Origin: a virus | Strand: one strand, 5' to 3' | Length of the DNA stretch: 49,803 nucleotides | IMG/VR virus record: IMGVR_UViG_3300030099_007948 | Coordinates: 3,460 to 53,262 of that record | Part shown: one piece after another, positions 3,329 through 49,803 of the stretch | How positions within the stretch are numbered: the first letter of the stretch is position 1 | Layout: the number at the start of each line of letters is the position of its first letter | The notes under the pieces: generated by a model | The model's database searches: none | What the model was told of the DNA's origin: nothing | What the model saw: only the letters and a program-made list of their open reading frames with translations | Made by a program: the position numbers and the translations under genes

Positions 3329-5005
3329 ATGGCAATTAAAATTTCGCAGCTTCCTGTTGGAGCTAAACCACCTTTTGATGGCGATGAGCTAGTCGCTCTA
3401 GTAGAAGACCCTCGAGGCTCTGCCAGCACAACAAGAGCGTCTTTATCTTCTGCCATGACCTATCTTTCTGGCGCGACAGATGGTGTTGGCATGCCTGTAT
3501 TAGCAGCACGGCAAAAAAATAACCACTTTAGCGAAAAGCAAACTATGGGCAGCAGCTTAACTGTTGAAGGTACATTAAGTGGTACAGAAAATCTCGTAGT
3601 TGGAACTAATATTACATATTGCACTCCTACCCTAGGCTCTGTTGGTGGTGGTACAGCTCACTGTATAGGCGGCTCGCATTCTACTATCGGTGGCGGTCGT
3701 GGTAATAAAACAACTAATGATTGTGTAACAATAGGCGGTGGTTGTAATAACATCGTTACTTGTGACCAAGCTACTATCGGCGGTGGTGTTGATAACAGAG
3801 TTGACGCATGCGCTACCGGTACAATTGGTGGTGGTAGCAGTAACAGATCTTGCGGAGAAGCTGGTGTTGTAGGTGGTGGTTGTTCTAATGCTGCAGGAGC
3901 AGATTACTCAACTGTAGCCGGTGGCTGTAACTTAAGTGCATTCGGATGTGGTTCAACTGTAAGCGGTGGTACTAGTGGTTGCGCGATAGTAGATGGTTCT
4001 ACTGTAGGCGGTGGTGTTGAAAACGTTGCTGGTGGCGGTTGCGCTACAATAGCTGGTGGTAGGTTAAATAAGGTTACCGGTACTGTAGCTTTTATAGGCG
4101 GTGGTAGTACAAACATAGCACCCGGGCTTAGTTCATTTATTGGCGGAGGCTCTAGTAACTGCGCCTGTGGTGAAGGCAGTGTTATTGTTGGCGGTGTAAA
4201 TAATCTAGCCTGCGGAGGTGATTCGTTTATCGGGGCTGGCATAACAAACCAAGTATCTTGTAGAAATTCTGTTGTTGTAGGCGGTACTGCAAATTGCACA
4301 TTGAGTCTTAGTTCTTTTATTGGGGGTGGCGCTGGTAATTATATTAGTGCCTCCTACGAAGGTAACGCTATTGTTGGTGGAGAAAATAATACTGTGGGTG
4401 GTGATGGATATGCCGCTTTTATTGGAGCTGGTAACTCTAATAGAACATGCGGGTGTTATAGTAGTGTGGTAGGCGGTAAAGGTAACGACGCTGGTACCGC
4501 AATGTGTGCTATTATTGTTGGAGGTCAGGATAATACTGTAAGTAATAATTTTGATGTTGTTGTGGGCGGTTGTAGTAACCAGGTAGCTGGTTGCGGTAAC
4601 AACTTTATTGGTGGGGGAGGTGCTAACTGCATCGGATCCGATACGTGTTATAGTACCGTGGCAGGAGGCTACACGAATAATATTCAGGGTTGTGAAATGA
4701 CATTTGGGTTCATTGGTGGTGGTTGTAATAACGCTATCGGTGGTTGTGCTGCAGCACATGGCGTTATTGCCGGTGGGATTAATAATTGCGTTTGTGCTAA
4801 TAACGCAATTATTGCTGGTGGTTGTAATAATATTGTTACACATAATAGAGCTGCAATAGTTGGCTCTGATATAACTTCTGTCGGGGCGGACATGCTGCAT
4901 GCTAAGTGTTTGTATCTAAGTGCTGGTGCTCTACCAACATCTGATCCTAGTATTGCCGGGGTTGTTTGGAGAGATGGTACTGACTTAAAAATCTCCGTTG
5001 GGTAG
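3329..5005 (+). CDS. Cys-rich glycine-repeat fibre protein
   Basis: A 558-residue probable virion fibre or appendage. Residues 1-45 (MAIKISQLPVGAKPPFDGDE and following) look like the short N-terminal segment of marine phage structural proteins. From about residue 100 to 520 there are roughly 27 imperfect repeats of 14-19 residues built on hydrophobic-(I/V)-(G/A/V)-G-G-x-x-N, most with one or two Cys. The C-terminus (LPTSDPSIAGVVWRDGTDL) resembles phage fibre ends. The pattern recalls the stacked left-handed rolls of trimeric adhesin heads (YadA-like), but the Cys content is unusual for those. It is not collagen, since there is no strict Gly-X-Y. Attachment or decoration is inferred. Confidence 0.75.
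   Translation: MAIKISQLPVGAKPPFDGDELVALVEDPRGSASTTRASLSSAMTYLSGATDGVGMPVLAARQKNNHFSEKQTMGSSLTVEGTLSGTENLVVGTNITYCTPTLGSVGGGTAHCIGGSHSTIGGGRGNKTTNDCVTIGGGCNNIVTCDQATIGGGVDNRVDACATGTIGGGSSNRSCGEAGVVGGGCSNAAGADYSTVAGGCNLSAFGCGSTVSGGTSGCAIVDGSTVGGGVENVAGGGCATIAGGRLNKVTGTVAFIGGGSTNIAPGLSSFIGGGSSNCACGEGSVIVGGVNNLACGGDSFIGAGITNQVSCRNSVVVGGTANCTLSLSSFIGGGAGNYISASYEGNAIVGGENNTVGGDGYAAFIGAGNSNRTCGCYSSVVGGKGNDAGTAMCAIIVGGQDNTVSNNFDVVVGGCSNQVAGCGNNFIGGGGANCIGSDTCYSTVAGGYTNNIQGCEMTFGFIGGGCNNAIGGCAAAHGVIAGGINNCVCANNAIIAGGCNNIVTHNRAAIVGSDITSVGADMLHAKCLYLSAGALPTSDPSIAGVVWRDGTDLKISVG
3640..4880 (+). repeat. coding tandem repeat, GG-x-x-N units
   Basis: About 27 degenerate units of 42-57 bases encode the fibre repeats, with recurring ggcggtggt-type cores. 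They generate long spurious reverse-strand frames. Confidence 0.8.
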
Positions 5006-25951: not shown

Positions 25952-27790
25952 ATGCCAAGCGAAGAAAAACAAGACAATAAATTTTTAGATTTTAACCTGC
26001 CACAGGACGCATACGTGGCATTTGATGCCACCACGTTGAAAGATTTTATTATTCAACGTTTAAATGAGAACGAAAAATTTACAGATCAAAACTACGAAGG
26101 TAGTAATCTCGCAGCTATTATCGATATAATAGCTTATTCTTATCACGTTCTTTTATTTTACTTAAACAATACAGCTTCTGAGGTTGATTTCAATCAAGCA
26201 ACACTGTATGAAAACATGAATAGAATTGTTAAGCTTATTGGGTATAAGCCAACCGGTAGGCAAACTTCAGTCGTTCCTGTAAATGCAATTGCAGAAGCTG
26301 CTATGGGTAGAGGTAACTACACTATAAGAAAATATAGTTATTTTCTAGCTGATGCTAATACACAATATACCTTTAACGAGGATTACTCGTTTGACAAAAC
26401 AACTACAAGTGACGAAGTTATAAAGACATTAAACGATAACGTTATATTGTACCAAGGTGTAGTTACGGAGTATCCAAATTATTTTGCACAAGGGATTGAT
26501 TTCGAAACTGTACCTATTGTTGTTGAAGCTATTTCTAATACTGATGCGAGATTTGTAGCAGACAACACAATAAGTGTTTATGTAAAAGAAACAGCTTCCG
26601 ATACATATTACGAGTATAGAGAAGTTGATAATTTATATTTAACTAATTCAACTGATAGGGTTTATGAAAAGAGATTAAATGAAAATGGTTTTTATGAAAT
26701 TAAGTTCGGAGATGGTTCATTTGGGAAAAAGCTAAAGCAAGATGATATTGTATCAATAAACTATATTCTCTCTGATAATAATAGAGGAATCATAAGTAAA
26801 AATGTCATTAATGGTAATAAGCTGTTTGTATATGACTCAGCAAGACAGCGGCAAATATTTAACGATACATATCAAAATAAAGAGCAAACTACATTTCTTA
26901 ATAGTCGATCAGGTACAAATTTAAAAATTAATAACCCTATTAACTCTTCAACCTTAACAGATGCTGAAACTGTTGAGCAGATAAGACAAAATGCTTCTAA
27001 ATTATTCTCTTCACAATTGCGGCTCGTTACAGGAGAAGATTATGAATTTTTTGTAAAGAAAAATCTAGCTAGCGTTGTTAATAGTGTTAAGGTAGTTAAC
27101 AACGATGAATACCTTAATGGTTACATACAGTATTTTTATGATATATGCGTCGATCCAAATAAAGTAAATAGAGTTATTATTAATCAAGTTAATTTTGCTG
27201 ATGCATGTGATTTCAACAATGTTAACTTATTTGTAACACCTAGATTTACTATTACAGAAGATGGCGACTACCCACCTTTCTGTAGTGAGTCGTTTAAAAA
27301 TCTGATAGTTACAACTACATCAGAAAAGAAAATGGTTTCTAATGATGTAGTACCGCGTGATCCTATCTATATGGCTTACGGGTTAGGAATGAGTAATAGC
27401 GATACATTAGACGTAAGTATTTTAAATGATACAAAGCTGTATATTGTTCGCGAGACAACCAATAAAATTAGTAAGCCAACTTTAGTGTCTAAAGCTGCAG
27501 CTGTTATAAGAAAATACTTCTTACCAGCTAACAACGAGTTAGGCCAAAATATAAACTTATCAAAAATGGCAGGTGAAATATTATCTATAACAGGTGTAAA
27601 GCGGATATTTACAAAAAATGAAAACGATGGTTCAATATTTAATGGATTATCGTTATTATCTTTTAACCCACAATACCCTGAAAGTGATATACAATTAGTG
27701 AACCAAGATATAACTCTTCCATATTTTAAATTCCCTTACTTGTATACTACACAGTCTTTAGGTAATAATATAACTGTTATCGATGAGTGA
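25952..27790 (+). CDS. baseplate wedge protein, gp6-like
   Basis: 612 residues (T4 gp6: 660), the central inner-baseplate wedge protein related to gpJ. The N-terminal region has YEGSNLAAIIDIIAYSYHVLLFYLNNTASEV, typical of the family, followed by NRIVKLIGYKPTG. Later comes the FGDGSFGKKLKQDDIVSINYI block. It overlaps the next gene by eight bases. Confidence 0.9.
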   Translation: MPSEEKQDNKFLDFNLPQDAYVAFDATTLKDFIIQRLNENEKFTDQNYEGSNLAAIIDIIAYSYHVLLFYLNNTASEVDFNQATLYENMNRIVKLIGYKPTGRQTSVVPVNAIAEAAMGRGNYTIRKYSYFLADANTQYTFNEDYSFDKTTTSDEVIKTLNDNVILYQGVVTEYPNYFAQGIDFETVPIVVEAISNTDARFVADNTISVYVKETASDTYYEYREVDNLYLTNSTDRVYEKRLNENGFYEIKFGDGSFGKKLKQDDIVSINYILSDNNRGIISKNVINGNKLFVYDSARQRQIFNDTYQNKEQTTFLNSRSGTNLKINNPINSSTLTDAETVEQIRQNASKLFSSQLRLVTGEDYEFFVKKNLASVVNSVKVVNNDEYLNGYIQYFYDICVDPNKVNRVIINQVNFADACDFNNVNLFVTPRFTITEDGDYPPFCSESFKNLIVTTTSEKKMVSNDVVPRDPIYMAYGLGMSNSDTLDVSILNDTKLYIVRETTNKISKPTLVSKAAAVIRKYFLPANNELGQNINLSKMAGEILSITGVKRIFTKNENDGSIFNGLSLLSFNPQYPESDIQLVNQDITLPYFKFPYLYTTQSLGNNITVIDE

Positions 27791-30134: not shown

Positions 30135-32984
30135 ATGGAAGAAATAATTCAAGGGTATCCTGAGGTTAGTTTATCTATAACCAATCCAGACGTAAGAAGA
30201 GAAAACGCTCTAGATAGAAATAGTCCGTTTTCTTTTCTCGACTTTATTAAAAATGTTCGCGAAACTTACGAACCTTCTGATTTACAGAATTTTTACAATG
30301 TATATATCAAAAGATATAACAGGCAGAGTGTAGCTAAGGGTCTGACGGATAAAGAAATTATTATTGAAAGATATAGGGAGTTTCTTAAAGATATTACGTT
30401 AAATTTTTCTACAAATGCAGAGAAAAAATTTCTTTCGCAAATCGATTTTAATGACAAGTATGATTTACAAATAGCGGTTTCTTTTTACAGTAAGAAGATA
30501 AGAAGTATAATCTCTTACTATCAAGTTAAAAGAGAAAAATTACATTTTTCGACGATTAAAGCAAAACTCAAAGGAAGTGACTTTGGGTTTAGACAAAATG
30601 CTTATAATCTTGTTACAGATTTTTTAGCTAATAGAAGTACAGCTGCGCAGGATTATAACATAGATACAATTAAAGAAAACGTAACAGTTTCGTTAACAGA
30701 ATATGTTGATCAATATACACAATATTTTAATGCTGAACCTGATGAAAAAGTTTATGGAAGAAATTTTGTAGAGTATACGCCTGATGGTCCTCCGTTTAGC
30801 AATATATTTTTAACTAACGACACGGTTCTTGTTGAAGAGGTTTTTGCTGGGCTGGATCAAGTTTTAATAGATTTAAAAGAAGCAAATGAGCTGTTCGAAA
30901 ACAAAAGACAGCAAACTGAAAAATTTATTGGTGCAGATTATTACTACCTATCTGCCAATAATGTAGGTACGTATGAAGTAGGGGTATTATTCGAAGCTGA
31001 TAAGCCCTATGCTAATTTTTTAAACACCAATTATCCTTCTGTTGCTTCAGTATTCTCTAACGAAATAAAAAGCGTAAGAGATCAAGGATTTTTTAGACCG
31101 ACAAATGCAAGTATTGTCTCTATAGAAAGTGAACGTCTAGACTTCTTTACTCAAAATTTTTACGGTACAGATAAGCTTTTTATTTTTCCTGATCCTAATT
31201 TATTTACAAACGATGACGATATTTTTACGTTTGTTATCGATACGTCGAGATCTATAAACAATCAAAGTAAGGGTGCAGCTGTTAACCAGCCTAATACAGA
31301 TAAAAATAGTACATCCTTAATGGGATATAACTCTGAGTTACCAACAGGTAAAGATATTAATTCCGATCTTTCTTTTCTCTTTGATCAAGGATATATACAC
31401 GATAGTAAAAGAGATTTAAATGGTAATATTTTTGGGCTTCTAAAAGATCAAAACTATTATAAAAACAATTTTGAAGTTCGGGCAGAGAAAACAATTAAAA
31501 GTTTAATATTAAATGGGTATCAATTTTTTGATGCTTTATATGGGGAAGGATCAAATTTTGATTACGATACTGTAGATGCTGGTGCAACTTACAGTGAAAC
31601 TTATAGGTCGGGCATTACATCTTATACTCAAAACTTTACAGCTGGAACAGTAGCAGAACAAGCTTCTGCTTATGATATATTTGGTCGTTACTTTGGGCCA
31701 TATCAAGAACAAATACCGATACCAACGTTTTCGGCTGTTGATATCGAACAAGTTGGTACAATCGAGGCAGATGTACAGGAGGGTGCTTTCTTTAAGTTTT
31801 CAGATAATGTAAATCTTGATGACGCTGTAAGTACTAATTTAAGCGCATATGACGCTTCTACGGGGGAGTTTTATTTCTCTAATTTATTAGAAGCAGGTGT
31901 ATCGTTTTATGATGACGGATCGACCATTGTGCGCGCATTATGTGACAGCCTTCACCCTGCAGCTACTGGTAATTTTACTTATAATCCAGTCGCTTCCGGT
32001 GATAATAACGTTACAAATATGGAGGGTGGTTTATTTTATGATGATCTAACCTTTAATTACACACCAAGGGAGTTTGAATCAGTCGACTACGTACCAACCA
32101 CATTACGCGAAACAGTAGTTACAGATGTTGTATCTGCAGCTGATAGCTTTTTCACAAAACGAGTCGACTGTGGTAAAATATATGTTAAAAACATAAACAA
32201 ACCTGCAAATTGGCCTAACGTCAAAGAACTTACACAGTCCTTAACATACTTAGATACAAAATACTCAGCAACTATCGGACACGAGCTCTCTACTTGTGTG
32301 AAAAACTTTGACTTACTTTATAACACTTTATTTATCGAGACTAGTTCTTTCTTAGTAGTAGAGAATATTGATTATAATATAGAAACGTTTGATTTTGAAA
32401 ATTCAGGATCTATTTCAAATGTTCTTTCAACAAATACAAATAATTTTGATAAAATAAGTAATCGATTTAAAGTCGGTGATGATGTTTTCTATGCTAAACT
32501 AATACACTCTGGCGTTATTAACGCAAATGTCGTTTTTAAGGATTTTAGAGTATATCCTGAAATTTACAAATTTAACTATAATACAAAGAAAGTAGAGCAA
32601 ATATACCCAACACCTGAAACTTCTGTAACTGATGACGCCTTATACTTTAATAGTATGAGAAATGATGTTGTCATTTTAGAGTCGAGTAAGCCTCAGTTAA
32701 CTTATAGCAGTGATAATGAAGTATTTAATTTAAGCTTTATACTTAAGGACCAGAATAAAGCTCCAAGACTTTATTCTTACATATTTGAATATAAAAATAA
32801 AGTCAACTTTTTATCTACAGAATATTACGTTGCCAATGACACGTCTGAAACCTTTAATTTTATTAAAACATCCGGATGGGGCGTACCAGAACTCGATCTT
32901 AGCTTTTTAGAGTTTGCATTAAGCTCTGGAATACCAGCCATGACTATTTCTTACCCACCATCTGCTGCTTCTATAATATTATGA
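30135..32984 (+). CDS. very large tail structural protein
   Basis: 949 residues, family not recognised. Residues 1-200 are helical with FLDFIKNVRETYEPSDLQNFYNVY and many Lys/Tyr pairs (SIISYYQVKREKLHF). The rest is beta-rich with many Asn/Thr/Tyr residues. By place it could be the gp7 or gp10 equivalent. It overlaps the protease-bearing gene by four bases (ATGA), so the two are probably made in related amounts. Confidence 0.55.
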   Translation: MEEIIQGYPEVSLSITNPDVRRENALDRNSPFSFLDFIKNVRETYEPSDLQNFYNVYIKRYNRQSVAKGLTDKEIIIERYREFLKDITLNFSTNAEKKFLSQIDFNDKYDLQIAVSFYSKKIRSIISYYQVKREKLHFSTIKAKLKGSDFGFRQNAYNLVTDFLANRSTAAQDYNIDTIKENVTVSLTEYVDQYTQYFNAEPDEKVYGRNFVEYTPDGPPFSNIFLTNDTVLVEEVFAGLDQVLIDLKEANELFENKRQQTEKFIGADYYYLSANNVGTYEVGVLFEADKPYANFLNTNYPSVASVFSNEIKSVRDQGFFRPTNASIVSIESERLDFFTQNFYGTDKLFIFPDPNLFTNDDDIFTFVIDTSRSINNQSKGAAVNQPNTDKNSTSLMGYNSELPTGKDINSDLSFLFDQGYIHDSKRDLNGNIFGLLKDQNYYKNNFEVRAEKTIKSLILNGYQFFDALYGEGSNFDYDTVDAGATYSETYRSGITSYTQNFTAGTVAEQASAYDIFGRYFGPYQEQIPIPTFSAVDIEQVGTIEADVQEGAFFKFSDNVNLDDAVSTNLSAYDASTGEFYFSNLLEAGVSFYDDGSTIVRALCDSLHPAATGNFTYNPVASGDNNVTNMEGGLFYDDLTFNYTPREFESVDYVPTTLRETVVTDVVSAADSFFTKRVDCGKIYVKNINKPANWPNVKELTQSLTYLDTKYSATIGHELSTCVKNFDLLYNTLFIETSSFLVVENIDYNIETFDFENSGSISNVLSTNTNNFDKISNRFKVGDDVFYAKLIHSGVINANVVFKDFRVYPEIYKFNYNTKKVEQIYPTPETSVTDDALYFNSMRNDVVILESSKPQLTYSSDNEVFNLSFILKDQNKAPRLYSYIFEYKNKVNFLSTEYYVANDTSETFNFIKTSGWGVPELDLSFLEFALSSGIPAMTISYPPSAASIIL

Positions 32985-34495
32985 ACACTCACACTATATA
33001 TCTCACTTCTACTAATACAGCTGATGATCAAGTACTTAATGAAATTGACTTATTTGATTTAACAAAACTCACGCTAGATCTATCGCAAGTCTACTCAGGT
33101 GTCTTTCCAAACTACTTAGCTATTAATTGGGGCGATAATAGTGACATTGAAGAACCAGATATAACAATATATAGAAATTATAAAACTGATTCAATATACC
33201 CTGAAGTAAAAGATGGTGCTTCACCAGTATTTTTCAATAAGCCATACACGCATATTTTCTATCCATCGGAAACCGCTCTCAAAAAAGTAATGACGATGAG
33301 AGTAAATGTGGGGTATATTACGGGCAACACAACAAAGTTTACAATACCTCTTAACGTTCGAACTGAAGGTTATTTTGAAAATATAAATGATCTAGATTTA
33401 TTAAATGTTAGTTTATTAAACAATAAAGATAATAAATCAATTTTTACGTTTTTAACAAAGCAAGATAATTACGTTTTACAGAGTCATAATAACGACGACA
33501 TAGTGTATGATACTGTGGGTAACATTAATACGTTATCATCATATAAAGATACATCTCATCAAAGTATAACAGAGACACAGTCTTTATTATCTGCTGTTAC
33601 GGACCCTAATGGTTCATCTGCAAAATTTAAATTTATTGAAAGTATTGGTGTTAATACAGCAACTTGGACGTCAACTTTTTGGGGATATGCCAATAGATCG
33701 GTTTACGACTTTTCCGGGACCAGCTATGGGCTATCGGGTAGTAGTCGCGGCGAGGAGATCCCAAGTGATAATAACATAACGTTAATATCACCTAGGCATG
33801 GTGTAGGTGTAGATCACTTTACTAATGATCCTGAAGCAGGCGACGTCGCTTATTTTTATGATCACACTACGGGGGAATCTGTATCCGCAACTATTTCCGG
33901 TGCTGCTAGTATTGGAAATGATTTAAGGGTTTATAGTTTCGAGAGAGATTTATCTACCGCAACAACATCTACAGGTGCTGATAGTAGTATTAAACTTCAT
34001 AAAGTACCATATTTTGCAAACGAAGCTCCAGCAAATACATACCCTGTAGTATACCAGGCTGGTAATAAAGAATTCGACAGTGACCATTTTATTGGTTATG
34101 GTGCAACAGACGTGTTAAATAAATTAACACTAACAAGAAACATCAACAATGAAATTATTAATTCTTATAATAAAGAGGTAATTGTTTTTATTAATTCTGT
34201 TCCTACACCAGGAGGGAATGCAGCACTGCCAGATTTTCGTCTAACTAATGTATCTCCTTCACTCTCAACTTATAACTTAAGTCTAACCGGAGTTGAAAGT
34301 GGTGATAGTGGAGGGCCTATTTATATAACATATGGAAATGAACTTTTGCTTCTAGGAATTATTCAAAGAGAGCAGTCATCCGGGGCAGTAAGTACAAATT
34401 TTGGAAATTTAAATATACAAGCAGATATTGCTACAGGTATGGAAGCGGTAGGAAATACATGGGGATATAAGCTGTCAACAGTTCGCTTAAGTTAA
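32981..34495 (+). CDS. baseplate-row protein with chymotrypsin-like serine protease domain
   Basis: 504 residues. The N-terminal part has a PKD-like turn (LAINWGDNSD, about 47-55). From about residue 265 a serine protease domain follows: TLISPRHGVGVDHF with His279, IGNDLRVYSF with Asp314, and ESGDSGGPIYI with Ser443, where GDSGGP is the S1-family nucleophile motif and G441 sits at the oxyanion position. The closing strands (ELLLLGIIQRE) fit the fold. No signal peptide or clear propeptide is seen. It is coupled by ATGA to the 949-residue gene. The role (fibre maturation, host surface digestion) is unknown. Confidence 0.75.
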   Translation: MNTHTIYLTSTNTADDQVLNEIDLFDLTKLTLDLSQVYSGVFPNYLAINWGDNSDIEEPDITIYRNYKTDSIYPEVKDGASPVFFNKPYTHIFYPSETALKKVMTMRVNVGYITGNTTKFTIPLNVRTEGYFENINDLDLLNVSLLNNKDNKSIFTFLTKQDNYVLQSHNNDDIVYDTVGNINTLSSYKDTSHQSITETQSLLSAVTDPNGSSAKFKFIESIGVNTATWTSTFWGYANRSVYDFSGTSYGLSGSSRGEEIPSDNNITLISPRHGVGVDHFTNDPEAGDVAYFYDHTTGESVSATISGAASIGNDLRVYSFERDLSTATTSTGADSSIKLHKVPYFANEAPANTYPVVYQAGNKEFDSDHFIGYGATDVLNKLTLTRNINNEIINSYNKEVIVFINSVPTPGGNAALPDFRLTNVSPSLSTYNLSLTGVESGDSGGPIYITYGNELLLLGIIQREQSSGAVSTNFGNLNIQADIATGMEAVGNTWGYKLSTVRLS

Positions 34496-43157: not shown

Positions 43158-44051
43158 ATGGCTTTTCCTAGTGACATTTCTTTGCCAAATGATGCGAGAT
43201 ATTATTCTTTTATTGAAACAAAGAGAAAATACAACTCAAACTATGATATCATTTGGTCTTTTCAATATAAAATACCAGAAACTATTAATGCTAATAGCGA
43301 TGTACTTAATATAGAAGAGCCAGAAAAATACCAGCTAGGATTTGCTACCTTTTTAACTACACTCTCTTCACCAATTTCAGCATTACCGGGTCAGTATTTA
43401 GGTGATTCTGATCCGGCGTGGATATTATCTGGTGGTAAACTTACTACTGAGGATGATAAATCGATTACAACAGAGGATGGTACATTTATAGAAGTTGAAT
43501 CTCGTTTATTAAGCGGTACATTAATTAAGATAGCGTTTGATACAACTGGTCTCTATGGTATTGAAGGGCGTGATAGTAGAACAGGTGTAAATGTAGATTC
43601 TCGGAAAAAAGAAGCACTCATATTAAGAGATTTTAATAATAACGTTGTTGTTAATGAACATCTCTCTTCTATATCTACATCATTTAGTACGTTATCAACA
43701 GATACATTTAGAACTTTAAGATTTAGATATGTTAATCTAGGACAAAAGTTATTTATTGATTACCATGATTCCGACACAACAACATTTACCACACTCACCA
43801 CTATTGATTTAGGCTTTAGATTAGAAAATTATAGTAATTTAGATGATATATACTGTGGGTTTTCATTTACAACACCAGTCTCAACAACTGCAGTTGATTT
43901 AAGTGCTAAAGAATTTTTCTTAAGAAACTTTCATACAGAAGGGTACGTGGGGTATTCTATTTTAACAGAAACAATTACTAGCGCAGAAATACCAGTAAAT
44001 CCAAATACTGTTACTTCTACTGTTAGTGATATAATAGCTAGACCCGTGTAA
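43158..44051 (+). CDS. tail-associated protein, possible concanavalin-like fold
   Basis: 297 residues, not recognised. The segment LLSGTLIKIAFDTTGLYG, then VVNEHLSS, then LRFRYVNLGQKLFIDYHD, has the strand order and FDTTG(L)YG turn of lectin/glucanase (concanavalin-like) jelly rolls, often used for glycan binding. Confidence is low for the fold. The giant gene begins one base after its stop. Confidence 0.5.
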   Translation: MAFPSDISLPNDARYYSFIETKRKYNSNYDIIWSFQYKIPETINANSDVLNIEEPEKYQLGFATFLTTLSSPISALPGQYLGDSDPAWILSGGKLTTEDDKSITTEDGTFIEVESRLLSGTLIKIAFDTTGLYGIEGRDSRTGVNVDSRKKEALILRDFNNNVVVNEHLSSISTSFSTLSTDTFRTLRFRYVNLGQKLFIDYHDSDTTTFTTLTTIDLGFRLENYSNLDDIYCGFSFTTPVSTTAVDLSAKEFFLRNFHTEGYVGYSILTETITSAEIPVNPNTVTSTVSDIIARPV

Positions 44052-44052
44052 T

Positions 44053-47000
44053 ATGTCTCATGATTTAAAACAAGGCTCAAAAGGCTGTAAAGATCAATCA
44101 GGTACTACTGTATCCTATACGTATAGCTGTCACAATAAAACAATTACTGTAACAAAAATAACAGGCGGTGGACCGCTATATAAGTTTTTTAATATAGGAG
44201 GAAACGAGATCGGTAAAATCGTATATACAGGCGGTGATTTTCCAGAGCAGACTTTTACGGATATTATTGACGAAAATGGTAATTTATATCTTTTAGTTGA
44301 AAGCTGTGGTTGTTGTGTAGAAATAAGAGAATCATGTGATGATGTAACTACTACATCTACTACCAGTACATCGACGTCGACATCTACTACTAGCACCACA
44401 CCGCGAGGTACAACCACTAGTACTACATCAACATCCACTAGTACTACAACACCATGTTGTCCGCCTAATGGAACGTGGTATTGGAACGATAACCCAGATT
44501 CCGGGGGGAGTGACTCCGCCAATAAAGGATCGGACATGACTGGGCTATTTGCTAATACCGGATTAGCATCATTTAGAGGAGTGCCAGCTGGTTCAGATGA
44601 ATCGTATGATGTAGATATTTCAAGCTATAATGAAAACGAGCCTAGTAGATTGGGTATTGTTACTGCAAGTGGTACAACTTATTATTACCCGGATAGTGAA
44701 GATAGCTTTATAGTCGACTCGTCTCGCGAGTGGAGTATGCAGTTTGAGCATTTAATTGTATATAACCGGACTGTCAATACATCAATTAACACTGGAACTG
44801 TTCAATCGACAGATGAATCCGTAATACCAGGTGTAGATAGTTTTACTAATAATCAAAGCACGGGCGTATCGCCTGATCGAGCTGAAAGCACGGTAACAAA
44901 AGAAATAAACACATTACTTATATCAACCTTACCAGATCTTAATAGCAAAGTAAATCTCTCTGGAGTTAGCGAAAAGGCTCCGAAGTTTCCAGCTACAGGA
45001 TATGAAAAAGCTGTAACGTTAGTATCACCGTCACACTTTGTAATGTCAAAGCATTGGCCTATTCGAAATCCCGGTAATGCTGTTAATTTTATTGATAACA
45101 ACGGACAACGGGTTACGCGTACCATCACCGGTGTCGAAAACTTAGAAGGTGTAGATATAAGTGTTGGTATTCTTAATACGCCAGTTGAAAATACTGATAT
45201 TTACCCTGTACCAGAACCACGAAAAACAGGAGGGTATGATCAAGAGTTAACAGGTGCGTTTATTGTAGTAGTTGATCAAGAAAGAAAGGCGATTCCAAAA
45301 GAAGTAAGATTTTATTCTGCAAAACGGCAAGCGAAGGGAGGGGAAAAATTAAACTTATATAATTCTATTCCCGATGAATATGCTAATGCTTACCCGGGTA
45401 ATTTAAAGGAAGTACTAGAAAAGGGCGATAGTAGTGGACCGGCATTTATCTATACTGAAGGTGTACCTATTTTAATTGAAACGCATACTTCTAACATAGA
45501 GGGGCCGTTTTACGGTAATGCTGAAACGCAGAAAAAAATTAACGAGGCTATGGCGAGTCTTAGTAATAAAACTGGTGGTGAAGTTTACACGTTACGAACA
45601 GTTGATATTTCAATAAAAGAGGCAAGTGATAATGTAGATCCTGTTGCTACTACAACAACTACAACAACTACAACACCAGCGCCTATACAAACCACAACAC
45701 CATCTACTAGTACATCTACTACAACAGAATTGTTTAGTGGACCGGTTCCTACAATGCGGCCTGCTACTACTGCGACAACTGCTGCACCAGCTAATGATGA
45801 TACAACACCTTTCGCGCGTGCTCCGAAATCTGCTCCAGAAGCGGATACACCTAAAACAGATACACAGGATACAAATAAGAGTCCTTACCCAACACAAGCT
45901 AGTTTTTCGCCGCATTACATGTATGATCCACTAGGTTACGCTATATACGTAACCTCTTTTGAGCAGCATAAAGAATTAGAATTATTAGGTTGGACGCATA
46001 AGGATGGACCTGCAACATACGACACTACAGAATCTAATAATACACCAGCGCCAGATAACACACCAGCACCGGATAATATGCCAGAAACAGGCGTATATAC
46101 AACCTCTCCGCCACGGGGAGGTAATTACACTGCTTATAATAAACTACCTCAGCAAGATCGAACTAACTTCCAGGGCTTGTTTGAAGGCGGGGGTGGTCAA
46201 AACATTGTTGTAAGATCTCAATTAAACGCACAGCTTAATGATGATAACACATATACTATAGTAGCGAGCAATAACAGAAGAAGAGATGGGACTGCTGCAG
46301 AAATACCTATGGTTGTTGATATTAGAGGGCCAGGTGCGTTACAAAATCCTAGAGCTAAGCGTAAGAAAAAAGGCAACAACAACGGACAGGGGTTAGCAGA
46401 TGCTAGAGAAGGATTAGAGCGGAGGCGCCAAGCTTTGAGACCGGGTAGGTTAGGGAATCCTGTAGGTAATCAACCCGGGCCTATAGATCCTGGAGGTTCA
46501 ATACATCAAGCACTTGCAAATGAAGCAAGAAGTATTAACCCACAAGCTGTAGACCGGCTTGGAAATATTGGTAATCCAGGCGACTTTGGTTTCGATGGTA
46601 ATAATCAACCTACAGAACAACGTAAACGTTTTGTTGAGTTACAAGAGATTCAAATTGAGATTAACAAAGAACATGACAAAATTGTAGAGCTGCAAAATAA
46701 AATTGAAAAGTCAATAACGGACTTCGGCATGCCAGAAGAGGGAAGCAAAAGGTATGATAGCATGTTATCAGAGGCTGTTGAGTTGATTAATGACGTGGAT
46801 TTTTATCTAGGTGTCAAGGGGTTGATAGAGGAAGGTGAGGATTTTGTGGATGCTAATCCAGGGCCAATAGGTGGAAATGATGGTAATCCAATTACTCCGG
46901 ATGATGAGGATGCTAGCGGTGGTGATGACGCAGGTGATGACGCCGGTGATGACGCGGGTGATGATGGTGATGATGCCGAGGGAGGTGGTGAAAAGCCTGA

Positions 47001-49803
47001 GTTCTATAGTATATTTCAAGAACTAGGATTAGTAAATATATTTGATCAGACTATTGATCGAGAAAAAATACAAGAGCTAGTTGATGGAAAAGGGCTAGTT
47101 GTAAGATATCCAGAAGGGTCGGAACAATGTTGGAGGTTAGTAGATGTTGATGAGTTATATAAGAGAAAAGATGGACTTGTTCGCACCGATCAGGATGTTT
47201 TATGTACACCTCCATCAGAGCCTGCATGGGAGCCTTGCCCTTGCTGCAAAGATAAACCCGATGATGGTACAACAACAACTACAACATCAACATCTACTAG
47301 TACGTCAACTAGTACTTCAACTAGTACGTCTACATCAACTACTACTCCGTGTCCACCGTGCTGTCCTCCGGCTGGTAAATGGTACTTCGAAGAATTAAAC
47401 AGAACATTCGATGAAGCAAACAATCAAGGAGATTTTGGTAATATCTATATACAACTTACAGTTGATCCTAATGTTGATGATAACAAATTTAAGCTGGGTA
47501 CGTACCAACCACCGCAAGCTGTTCTTACATTTGCAAATGATTATATTCCTAATCCTACAAACGGATTGATATTAAAAGACGATAATAGCGCCGGTGCAGA
47601 ATGGGAAGAGTGTTTAGATAACAGCTTCGGGCGGTGCTTTAAGATTGTTGACGAAGAACTTGTACGACAGAATATAGAGAAATCACCAGCAGAGCTAGTT
47701 GCTGCAGCTTATCAATTTGATAACGAGCAATCAGTAGAGGATCGCTTTGGTAAAGGACATTGGCCAGATGAAATACCTATTGGATATAATGGTCTTGAAA
47801 ACCCTGTTGAAGCTGGTGATGCAGCTGGGGGGTGGGAGTATTGTGAGTGTTGTCCTCCTGAAGATGTAACAACGACGTCAACTACTAGTACATCTACTTC
47901 AACCAGTACATCTACAAGTACAAGTACATCTACTTCAACCAGTACATCTACAAGTACCACGACACCGTGTTGCGTACCAGAGTGCTCTCCGCCAGCGATA
48001 GCATTGGGATTATGGTTTTGGGAAAATGCAGCAATGAATTACCTTATACCGTTTAATGATACGGCAGAAAATGGCATGGTATTCTTTGAAGGTCCGGAAT
48101 TTGAAGGACGTGAGTATGAAGACGGGTTAAAGCCTGGTGAATTTCCAAACCAGAACGGCACAGAACACACTGAGCAAGATATTTCACGTGCATTGCTAGA
48201 AAACGACAGCTTTAAAGCTCAGTCAATGATTGAGTGGGCTATTAGTAAGAAATGGATAACATTAGATCAAGCTGTTGATTTACAACGACGTTTAGATCAA
48301 TGGAGACAGGAGTATGCAGATGCTGATAAAAGGCAGTGTTATTTTATTCATGATGCAGCGTGGGTAAATGCTAATAAAGAAGTTAGACCATCTGAAGATA
48401 TTGATAAGAATGGACAATTTCCGGATGATGATATAGATGGAGATGGAACGCTTGACAAAGGAAAAGGATGGGAAAAGTGTGAGTGTTGCCCGTGTTGTCC
48501 TCCCACACGCTGTGATTTGTGTTGGTATTGGAACGCGAAAAACGATAACGTGTTTATAGATCTTGGTGTTGTTAAATTTAAGCCTGGTGTTAAGGAAGAA
48601 AAGCAAAAACCAGAAGATATACGTGTTCCACGTGGTAACTCTGATCGTGCAGTAGCACAAAGAGCGGCACTAAGAAGGCAGATTGAGGCTGATGACAATG
48701 TAGAAATTTTAAGAGAGAGACCTGGAAGATGGACTATACAACGTACAATACAAGTACGTGATTTAGAGGATAAAGATAAAGATGGTATACCAGATAATGA
48801 TGAGTTTACATTTGAAGTTGAAGAAGGCACGGTAATAAAATACTGCTGTACTGATCCACCTTTTGCTGAAGGATTCGTTGATGATGTTATACAAAATGCT
48901 TTCAATGAAGGTAAAGCGGCGCGTGAAGATGTTGAAAAGAAACAAGAGGCTGTAGCAAACGCACAAACCGATGATGAAAGAGCTGTAGCTCAGAATGCTC
49001 TTAATGTAGCGGAAGAAAGATTAAATGAAGCAACATTAAATTATAGGGTTGCGCAAGGTAACGTAGGTGCAGTACGCAACTTAATTGTTGATAATAATCC
49101 TAAGTTTCTAACACCTACACAAGAAAACCAGTTACGAGATTTATTATCACGTGAACAACGATTACAAGAAGCAAATAGTGGTGTACCACCAGAAGAGCTA
49201 AATGGAGAAAAACCCGGTGAGCGGCGACAATGGGCACAAGACCGTTTTAAAGAGCTTCTTGGTGAAGAAGGTGCTATAGAAGCGCGACAAATTATAAATG
49301 ATGCTTTAGCTAGAGAACGTTTAATAGAAAACGACAACAACTGGAATGCTATTAAACCTGGTAATGAGCTAGGCTTAGGCGATATAAAGGACGGTGATGA
49401 GTTACAAAGATTTGAAAATGATGACGGAATTGTGTTTGATCCAAAGAGGAAAAAGGATGCAAACAATGACGGTGTAATTGATGACGACGAAAAAGGAGAG
49501 GCAGCAATAGACGGGGTTGGAAAGAATTTTGATGAAGATTGTAAAGAAGCTTGCCGCCCGGTTTGCTTCAAAGTTATTAATGCTGATTTCGTTAATGCAA
49601 ATCCTATGCTTAACCCTGCAATCGACGTTTTGATGCATGTCAATAACCCGGCTGTAAACCCACAAAATAGAGATAAACCGGCAAAGCTACGTACTAAAGA
49701 TCTTGAGCCTGGTGATAAAGGATTAGGTTGGGAAATGTGCGAGTGCTGTCCGTGTCCTCCTCCAACCGATGGAGGCGGCGGCGGACCACAACCACCAATA
49801 ATA
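44053..49803 (+). CDS. giant modular protein with serine protease domain, 3' end missing
   Basis: Open from ATG 44053 to the window end, at least 1917 residues, no internal stop. Order: residues 1-96 beta domain ending in a Cys cluster (SCGCC); Thr/Ser linker 99-133; CCPPNGTWYW; serine protease about 317-520 with TLVSPSHFVMSKHW (His334), EGVDISVGILN (Asp368), KGDSSGPAF (Ser460); Thr-rich linker 533-558; Pro/Asn-rich part; a coiled coil near 855-890; an Asp-rich GDDAGDDAGDD stretch near 957-975; linkers 1073-1098 and 1273-1304; then Cys-flanked modules ending GWE-x-CECC-P at about 1476 and 1895. DIDGDG and DKDKDGIPDND loops look calcium-binding. Possibly a long fibre or adhesin. It follows the 297-residue gene with a one-base gap. 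Confidence 0.78.
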   Translation, partial: MSHDLKQGSKGCKDQSGTTVSYTYSCHNKTITVTKITGGGPLYKFFNIGGNEIGKIVYTGGDFPEQTFTDIIDENGNLYLLVESCGCCVEIRESCDDVTTTSTTSTSTSTSTTSTTPRGTTTSTTSTSTSTTTPCCPPNGTWYWNDNPDSGGSDSANKGSDMTGLFANTGLASFRGVPAGSDESYDVDISSYNENEPSRLGIVTASGTTYYYPDSEDSFIVDSSREWSMQFEHLIVYNRTVNTSINTGTVQSTDESVIPGVDSFTNNQSTGVSPDRAESTVTKEINTLLISTLPDLNSKVNLSGVSEKAPKFPATGYEKAVTLVSPSHFVMSKHWPIRNPGNAVNFIDNNGQRVTRTITGVENLEGVDISVGILNTPVENTDIYPVPEPRKTGGYDQELTGAFIVVVDQERKAIPKEVRFYSAKRQAKGGEKLNLYNSIPDEYANAYPGNLKEVLEKGDSSGPAFIYTEGVPILIETHTSNIEGPFYGNAETQKKINEAMASLSNKTGGEVYTLRTVDISIKEASDNVDPVATTTTTTTTTPAPIQTTTPSTSTSTTTELFSGPVPTMRPATTATTAAPANDDTTPFARAPKSAPEADTPKTDTQDTNKSPYPTQASFSPHYMYDPLGYAIYVTSFEQHKELELLGWTHKDGPATYDTTESNNTPAPDNTPAPDNMPETGVYTTSPPRGGNYTAYNKLPQQDRTNFQGLFEGGGGQNIVVRSQLNAQLNDDNTYTIVASNNRRRDGTAAEIPMVVDIRGPGALQNPRAKRKKKGNNNGQGLADAREGLERRRQALRPGRLGNPVGNQPGPIDPGGSIHQALANEARSINPQAVDRLGNIGNPGDFGFDGNNQPTEQRKRFVELQEIQIEINKEHDKIVELQNKIEKSITDFGMPEEGSKRYDSMLSEAVELINDVDFYLGVKGLIEEGEDFVDANPGPIGGNDGNPITPDDEDASGGDDAGDDAGDDAGDDGDDAEGGGEKPEFYSIFQELGLVNIFDQTIDREKIQELVDGKGLVVRYPEGSEQCWRLVDVDELYKRKDGLVRTDQDVLCTPPSEPAWEPCPCCKDKPDDGTTTTTTSTSTSTSTSTSTSTSTSTTTPCPPCCPPAGKWYFEELNRTFDEANNQGDFGNIYIQLTVDPNVDDNKFKLGTYQPPQAVLTFANDYIPNPTNGLILKDDNSAGAEWEECLDNSFGRCFKIVDEELVRQNIEKSPAELVAAAYQFDNEQSVEDRFGKGHWPDEIPIGYNGLENPVEAGDAAGGWEYCECCPPEDVTTTSTTSTSTSTSTSTSTSTSTSTSTSTSTTTPCCVPECSPPAIALGLWFWENAAMNYLIPFNDTAENGMVFFEGPEFEGREYEDGLKPGEFPNQNGTEHTEQDISRALLENDSFKAQSMIEWAISKKWITLDQAVDLQRRLDQWRQEYADADKRQCYFIHDAAWVNANKEVRPSEDIDKNGQFPDDDIDGDGTLDKGKGWEKCECCPCCPPTRCDLCWYWNAKNDNVFIDLGVVKFKPGVKEEKQKPEDIRVPRGNSDRAVAQRAALRRQIEADDNVEILRERPGRWTIQRTIQVRDLEDKDKDGIPDNDEFTFEVEEGTVIKYCCTDPPFAEGFVDDVIQNAFNEGKAAREDVEKKQEAVANAQTDDERAVAQNALNVAEERLNEATLNYRVAQGNVGAVRNLIVDNNPKFLTPTQENQLRDLLSREQRLQEANSGVPPEELNGEKPGERRQWAQDRFKELLGEEGAIEARQIINDALARERLIENDNNWNAIKPGNELGLGDIKDGDELQRFENDDGIVFDPKRKKDANNDGVIDDDEKGEAAIDGVGKNFDEDCKEACRPVCFKVINADFVNANPMLNPAIDVLMHVNNPAVNPQNRDKPAKLRTKDLEPGDKGLGWEMCECCPCPPPTDGGGGGPQPPII
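44347..44451 (+). repeat. Thr/Ser-coding linker repeat 1
   Basis: ACT/ACA/AGT/TCT codon repeats encoding residues 99-133, mostly alternating Thr and Ser, followed by CCPP. Confidence 0.85.
45649..45726 (+). repeat. Thr-coding linker repeat 2
   Basis: Encodes residues 533-558 (polyThr, PAPIQ, then T/S), directly after the protease domain. Confidence 0.8.
47269..47346 (+). repeat. Thr/Ser-coding linker repeat 3
   Basis: Encodes residues 1073-1098, strictly alternating Thr-Ser after six Thr, flanked by CPCC upstream and PCPPCCPP downstream. Confidence 0.85.
47869..47964 (+). repeat. Thr/Ser-coding linker repeat 4
   Basis: Encodes residues 1273-1304, with two near-identical 30-base halves, flanked by CECCPP upstream and PCC downstream. 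Confidence 0.85.

Follow-up and report, generated by a model that had tools for sequence, protein, structure and literature searches.

Two homologous serine protease-like domains in tail-region proteins of an uncultured marine T4-like phage

Two otherwise unlike proteins encoded in the tail region of an uncultured marine T4-like phage carry homologous domains that are very likely, to judge from their sequences, diverged chymotrypsin-like (S1-type, PA-clan-like) serine proteases with an intact catalytic triad. The enzyme kind is known, and these domains add a new branch to it, in phage tails; what is new is their arrangement as paired, exchangeable tail modules. Comparison across relatives indicates that the protease in the larger of the two proteins is exchanged between lineages. 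The window, by which we mean the whole stretch of 49,803 nucleotides that was analyzed, spans positions 3460–53262 of IMG/VR virus record IMGVR_UViG_3300030099_007948 (53,262 bases in all). The best cultured-phage matches to its gp6-like protein and terminase reach only about 27–39% identity. A T4-like tail module surrounds both protease-bearing genes, comprising sheath, tube, tape-measure-like protein and the gp6-like baseplate wedge (gp6, 25952–27790, identified by its match to phrog_219), after which come five large proteins, a Gp10_C protein and two collar-fiber proteins.

The first domain is found in P0001, a 504-aa baseplate-region protein (32981..34495, + strand; delimited by its open reading frame and homologues) that starts 5.2 kb downstream of gp6. 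Its N-terminal module of about 178 aa (32981..33514, + strand) exists in relatives as a stand-alone gene of 178–192 aa and is likely a structural anchor, and the protease is a C-terminal extension of this small baseplate protein, which is protease-free in other phages. The earlier note had placed the protease domain at 33781–34340; a domain is present there, and it is larger than those bounds, covering residues about 236–504 (about 33686..34492, + strand). Its motifs TLISPRHGVGVDHF, GNDLRVYSF and SGDSGGP contain the catalytic residues His279 (codon 33815..33817), Asp314 (33920..33922) and Ser443 (34307..34309), all on the + strand, a numbering that proved correct on re-reading the open reading frame. 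His279 aligns with S1 His57, Asp314 is invariant across 17 family members, and Ser443, also invariant, lies in a GDSGGP that aligns with the S1 GDSGGP. Full-length homologues of P0001 are about 60–75% identical, and the triad is kept in all complete ones. All 17 members also share a second histidine, His273 (33797–33799, + strand), which precedes the catalytic one by six residues and stands where S1 proteases usually have tryptophan. His273 was weighed as a candidate for the catalytic residue and discarded because it aligns with the tryptophan of S1 'xWVxSAAH', with His279 aligned to His57.

The second domain is found in a giant tail-region protein (44053..49803, + strand), of which 1917 aa are visible. 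Its open reading frame reaches the window end and is incomplete because the contig ends within it; complete homologues in the window's lineage are 1909–2431 aa. The domain covers residues about 278–526 (44884..45630, + strand), with catalytic codons for His334 (45052..45054), Asp368 (45154..45156) and Ser460 (45430..45432, within GDSSGP), all on the + strand, so that both domains have the triad in the order His, Asp, Ser (H279/D314/S443 and H334/D368/S460).

Several results support the claim of the earlier note that these are two homologous serine protease domains in otherwise unlike tail-region proteins, lying far apart. The His–Asp spacing is 35 residues in P0001 and 34 in the giant, and the two His codons are separated by 11.2 kb. 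Profile–profile comparison aligned the domains over 209 columns (probability 95.7, E 8.5e-9), and BLASTP between the two recovered short pieces only (E 5e-4 and 1e-3). Among 921 ORFs, an HMM of one group finds most of the other at E-values of 1e-4 to 1e-10, with the best match to reversed sequences at E 0.1–0.4, a control that rules out chance occurrence of the motif. The domains in the giant slot fall into three types: A (this window, G001, G004 and the L014/L015 group), B (G002, G003, G006 and L031) and C (L043, L046, L047, L053 and L060). The baseplate domain constitutes a fourth type, P1.

An alignment of 17 diverse members has just eight invariant columns (H273, H279, F292, D314, D442, S443, P446 and G475, in P0001 numbering), which include all three catalytic residues. 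The motif around the catalytic serine is GDSGGP in the P0001 type and GDSSGP, GDSSSP or GDSSAP in the giant type, and once HDSSSP. This last form belongs to the giant-slot protease of L031 (L031:2633-6391), where it replaces GDSSSP and alters the oxyanion-hole glycine, so that this protease possibly has reduced or altered activity. Chymotrypsin-fold pseudoenzymes are known, and the altered glycine in L031 would be in keeping with a non-catalytic chymotrypsin fold that binds a receptor or another tail protein. Invariance of the triad in members down to about 20% identity is unexpected without catalysis; because the triad is conserved, we disfavor such a binding role and regard it as very unlikely.

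Resemblance to S1 proteases was found mainly through the family as a whole. Because no curated profile matched significantly, we call the domain S1-like and do not assign it to a recognized S1 subfamily. Pfam returned no family at E<1 for either P0001 or the giant, including no match to the Peptidase_S74 profile, PHROGs searches with both whole proteins returned no match, and a trypsin family search among the family members found none. Searched against all PDB sequences, the family profile gave 39 weak hits (E 0.04–2.7), nearly all of them S1 proteases; the best S1 hit (E 0.079) is sub-threshold, and no match to a single solved protease is significant alone. In these alignments the GDS of the serine motif is placed on the GDSGGP of S1 proteases, and LISPRHxxxxxH is aligned, in a sub-threshold piece, to LISPCWxxxxAH of urokinase. 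PDB searches with a single sequence or with either subfamily alone gave chance matches only. AlphaFold models built from shallow alignments are of low confidence (mean pLDDT 32 and 41). In Foldseek, the low-confidence model of the giant domain retrieved plasmin and chymotrypsin (probability up to 0.98, TM-score about 0.2), and unrelated V-ATPase chains gave similar E-values with the same model; comparison with a viral fold library was uninformative. Set against the MEROPS S1 family (clan PA), the window domains thus share the triad order, the GDS(G/S)(G/S/A)P motif and LISPxHxxxxxH in place of LISPxWxxxxAH, but they differ in giving no significant pairwise or Pfam match, in their invariant His273 and in sitting in phage tail proteins.

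Both domains tend to occur together in the window's relatives. The giant protease is present in 6/6 contigs that carry the P1 protease and span both loci (G000, G001, G002, G003, G004 and G006), a co-occurrence that the earlier note had proposed to check; because the six contigs are related and G002 and G003 nearly identical, they count as no more than about five independent cases. The pair is not strict. The baseplate gene is protease-free (178–192 aa) in eight contigs, among them G010–G013, which have the giant protease together with a P1-position gene of 192 aa that lacks a protease and lies between the same two neighbors, and L099 and L100, with 178-aa protease-free versions. G010–G013 contradict an obligate pairing, and the suggestion that two members form a fixed system, or a maturation cascade, is not supported, since relatives with shared tail genes do without the protease. 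The earlier note had named absence of either domain from relatives with the same tail genes as evidence against its reading, and such absence was found in part: in relatives with the shared tail gene order the baseplate protein lacks the protease, and so do many giant-slot proteins, some of them in close relatives. The parsimonious reading of these sequences is that a single addition, in the lineage of the window, would have joined the protease to the small baseplate protein. A tblastn search of 50,697 phage records with P0001 and the giant found no relatives. Neither domain type was found in one genome per bacterial or archaeal species, in scans that were seeded by short conserved peptide patterns and could miss distant relatives.

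The giant protease has a more mobile history. In about 30 relatives, the protein in the giant slot follows a 297-aa protein that is kept in all relatives and serves as a backbone marker (43158..44051, + strand, in the window), and it is very variable in length. The protease takes the form of an insert that some relatives with well-conserved flanks have and others lack; between L046 and L045, for example, the two flanks are 61% and 81% identical, and the protease is missing from L045. On the backbone tree, presence of the giant protease changes at least three times. L014 and L031 are sisters on this tree (support 99/91), with a neighboring protein 86% identical and a protease only 24% identical. 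The AU test rejects grouping of the giant proteases by backbone clade (p 4e-5, on a tree with long branches). Between L014 and the window's giant, in turn, the protease domain is 47% identical and no other part is detectably common. The baseplate copy appears to stay with its lineage and the giant's copy to be swapped, which would be expected of a module selected for substrate range.

This optional presence and exchange bear most directly on the main rival interpretation, that the domains act in maturation or self-processing, cutting the giant, P0001 or neighboring tail proteins during assembly, for instance to free a fiber tip or to trigger a conformational change. A protease in a phage structural module is usually there for maturation, each of the two domains forms part of a large structural-type protein, the long linkers of the giant would suit cleavage, and the domains co-occur in all six contigs. 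However, one or both domains are missing from relatives whose shared tail genes are apparently complete, and the swap of a 24%-identical domain beside an 86%-identical neighbor is hard to square with conserved cleavage sites. Because the protease is optional and exchanged between lineages, we disfavor a fixed maturation cascade and consider maturation in general rather unlikely; self-processing of the giant would be the least unlikely form of this weakened alternative. The T4 gp21-type prohead protease offers no close parallel, since the window genes lie in a tail/baseplate module, not in a head module with the capsid gene, and their domains are optional in both slots. The earlier note had left maturation and receptor processing side by side; from modularity and exchange we infer that processing of a receptor or surface is the favored reading of the two.

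One homologue was found outside the T4-like relatives. Types B and C each led to the same site in an unrelated podophage, ct3Et533 (MW202510.1), at E 5e-3 and 0.4, and a family HMM built without the ct3Et533 protein scores that protein at 2.4e-15 in the 921-ORF set, with its triad intact. This protein (UOF78081.1) resembles the window proteins in its homologous domain, in the same triad and in its position, where the block of virion genes ends, but differs in being a 411-aa podophage protein, annotated as hypothetical, with one such site in the record. It lies (L109:11539-13316) between a beta-helix-like protein, annotated as a rhamnogalacturonan lyase, and a fibronectin-III protein.

Location among virion genes argues against a role off the particle, whether in the infected cell or once released from it, in host takeover or superinfection exclusion. 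Domain swapping would fit the arms race that such a role implies, and the particle location is predicted from gene position; optional presence and exchange would also fit a role in superinfection or inhibitor escape. Yet both genes lie within the baseplate and collar-fiber gene row, whose order is conserved in relatives, and the podophage homologue is likewise placed among virion genes. We consider an intracellular or post-release role improbable.

Protease action on the particle, toward the host surface, is the reading that we favor, and the domains were compared with other described systems. In the open-license literature we found no direct precedent for tail-borne trypsin-like proteases. 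The Sinorhizobium phage phiM9, also of the T4 supergroup, encodes a trypsin-like protein with a Trypsin_2 assignment, Sm_phiM9_102 (PMC10783043). Unlike the window proteins, Sm_phiM9_102 is a stand-alone protein of 230 aa that adjoins gp23 and is not fused to a tail protein, and it has TAAH and GMSGG motifs and an apparent N-terminal signal or membrane segment; its different motif, stand-alone form and position beside gp23 led us to reject it as a relative. In a head-tail virus, a virion protein that carries a fused chymotrypsin-like protease has been described, a case likened here by description only, but that fusion is on the capsid protein and presumed to serve capsid maturation.

The closest functional analogy is with the depolymerases of tailspikes and tail fibers, in which a structural N-terminal anchor carries a swappable C-terminal or internal enzyme module. 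The window proteins are similar in that their anchor is conserved and their enzyme domain is variable, lost or swapped; they differ in that their enzyme is predicted to cut protein instead of acting as a glycan lyase or hydrolase, and no beta-helix trimer was seen. From the optional presence and exchange of the domain, we favor a protease that is accessory, carried on the particle and variable in its substrate. P0001 and the giant would be built into the tail tip or fiber apparatus, where their protease domains would be active on the particle and would cut a host surface protein at adsorption, such as a receptor shield or an outer-membrane or S-layer-type protein. They would thereby act as a protein-cutting counterpart of the polysaccharide depolymerase modules on tailspikes, where exchange of the copy in the fiber-like giant would serve substrate range and the copy on the baseplate would remain stable. 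We put the chances of this proposal as a whole, that tail-borne, particle-active proteases cut a host surface protein at adsorption and that the giant's copy is swapped, at about even. Its more specific form is a plausible but somewhat less secure candidate: a family, new to the literature, of paired, particle-borne 'protein depolymerases', one on the baseplate and one on a Ser/Thr-rich, probably glycosylated fiber, that would both cut host surface proteins at adsorption, with the fiber copy exchanged among phages so that the substrate changes.

Phage tails are known to bear enzymes that cut sugars and so remove host capsules, and a swappable protein-cutting counterpart, if real, would be a different route to opening the host surface. 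Natural pairs that differ solely by presence, absence or swap of the domain would allow a direct test of its role in a cultured relative. Since Pfam and PHROGs miss the domain, the family alignment offers a means of detecting it in other sequences.

The rest of the giant suggests a setting for its protease, a module that is optional and sits as an insert between Ser/Thr-rich linkers. Runs of Ser/Thr repeats, the longest of about 33 residues, are evident from the sequence at 44347..44454 (+ strand) and again at about 47269–47349 and about 47869–47967, and are likely glycosylated linkers. In most relatives where the region is visible, the next gene after the giant encodes a family-2 glycosyltransferase, assigned by Pfam (for example L012:15507-16337, L013:15251-16081 and L065:10650-11483), and this neighbor persists even where the giant is shortened to 157–175 aa of Ser/Thr repeat. 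The corresponding region of G001 also has GT29-like and PIG-L-like genes. This pattern suggests that the giant is a mucin-like tail protein, glycosylated by a transferase encoded beside it.

Most complete giant-slot proteins, including those of L013, L014, L031, L040 and L065, end in the signature CN(x)L(x)[F/W/Y] (CNVLKW, CNNLQF, CNRLGF), which the window's copy ends before reaching. The signature persists although the length of the proteins ranges from 157 to 2431 aa, and it may serve as a tag for attachment or assembly. In two relatives the giant slot holds apparent tandem duplicates, of 972 and 924 aa with matching ends in one (L059:11784-17543) and of 300 and 270 aa in the other (L072:5064-6796).
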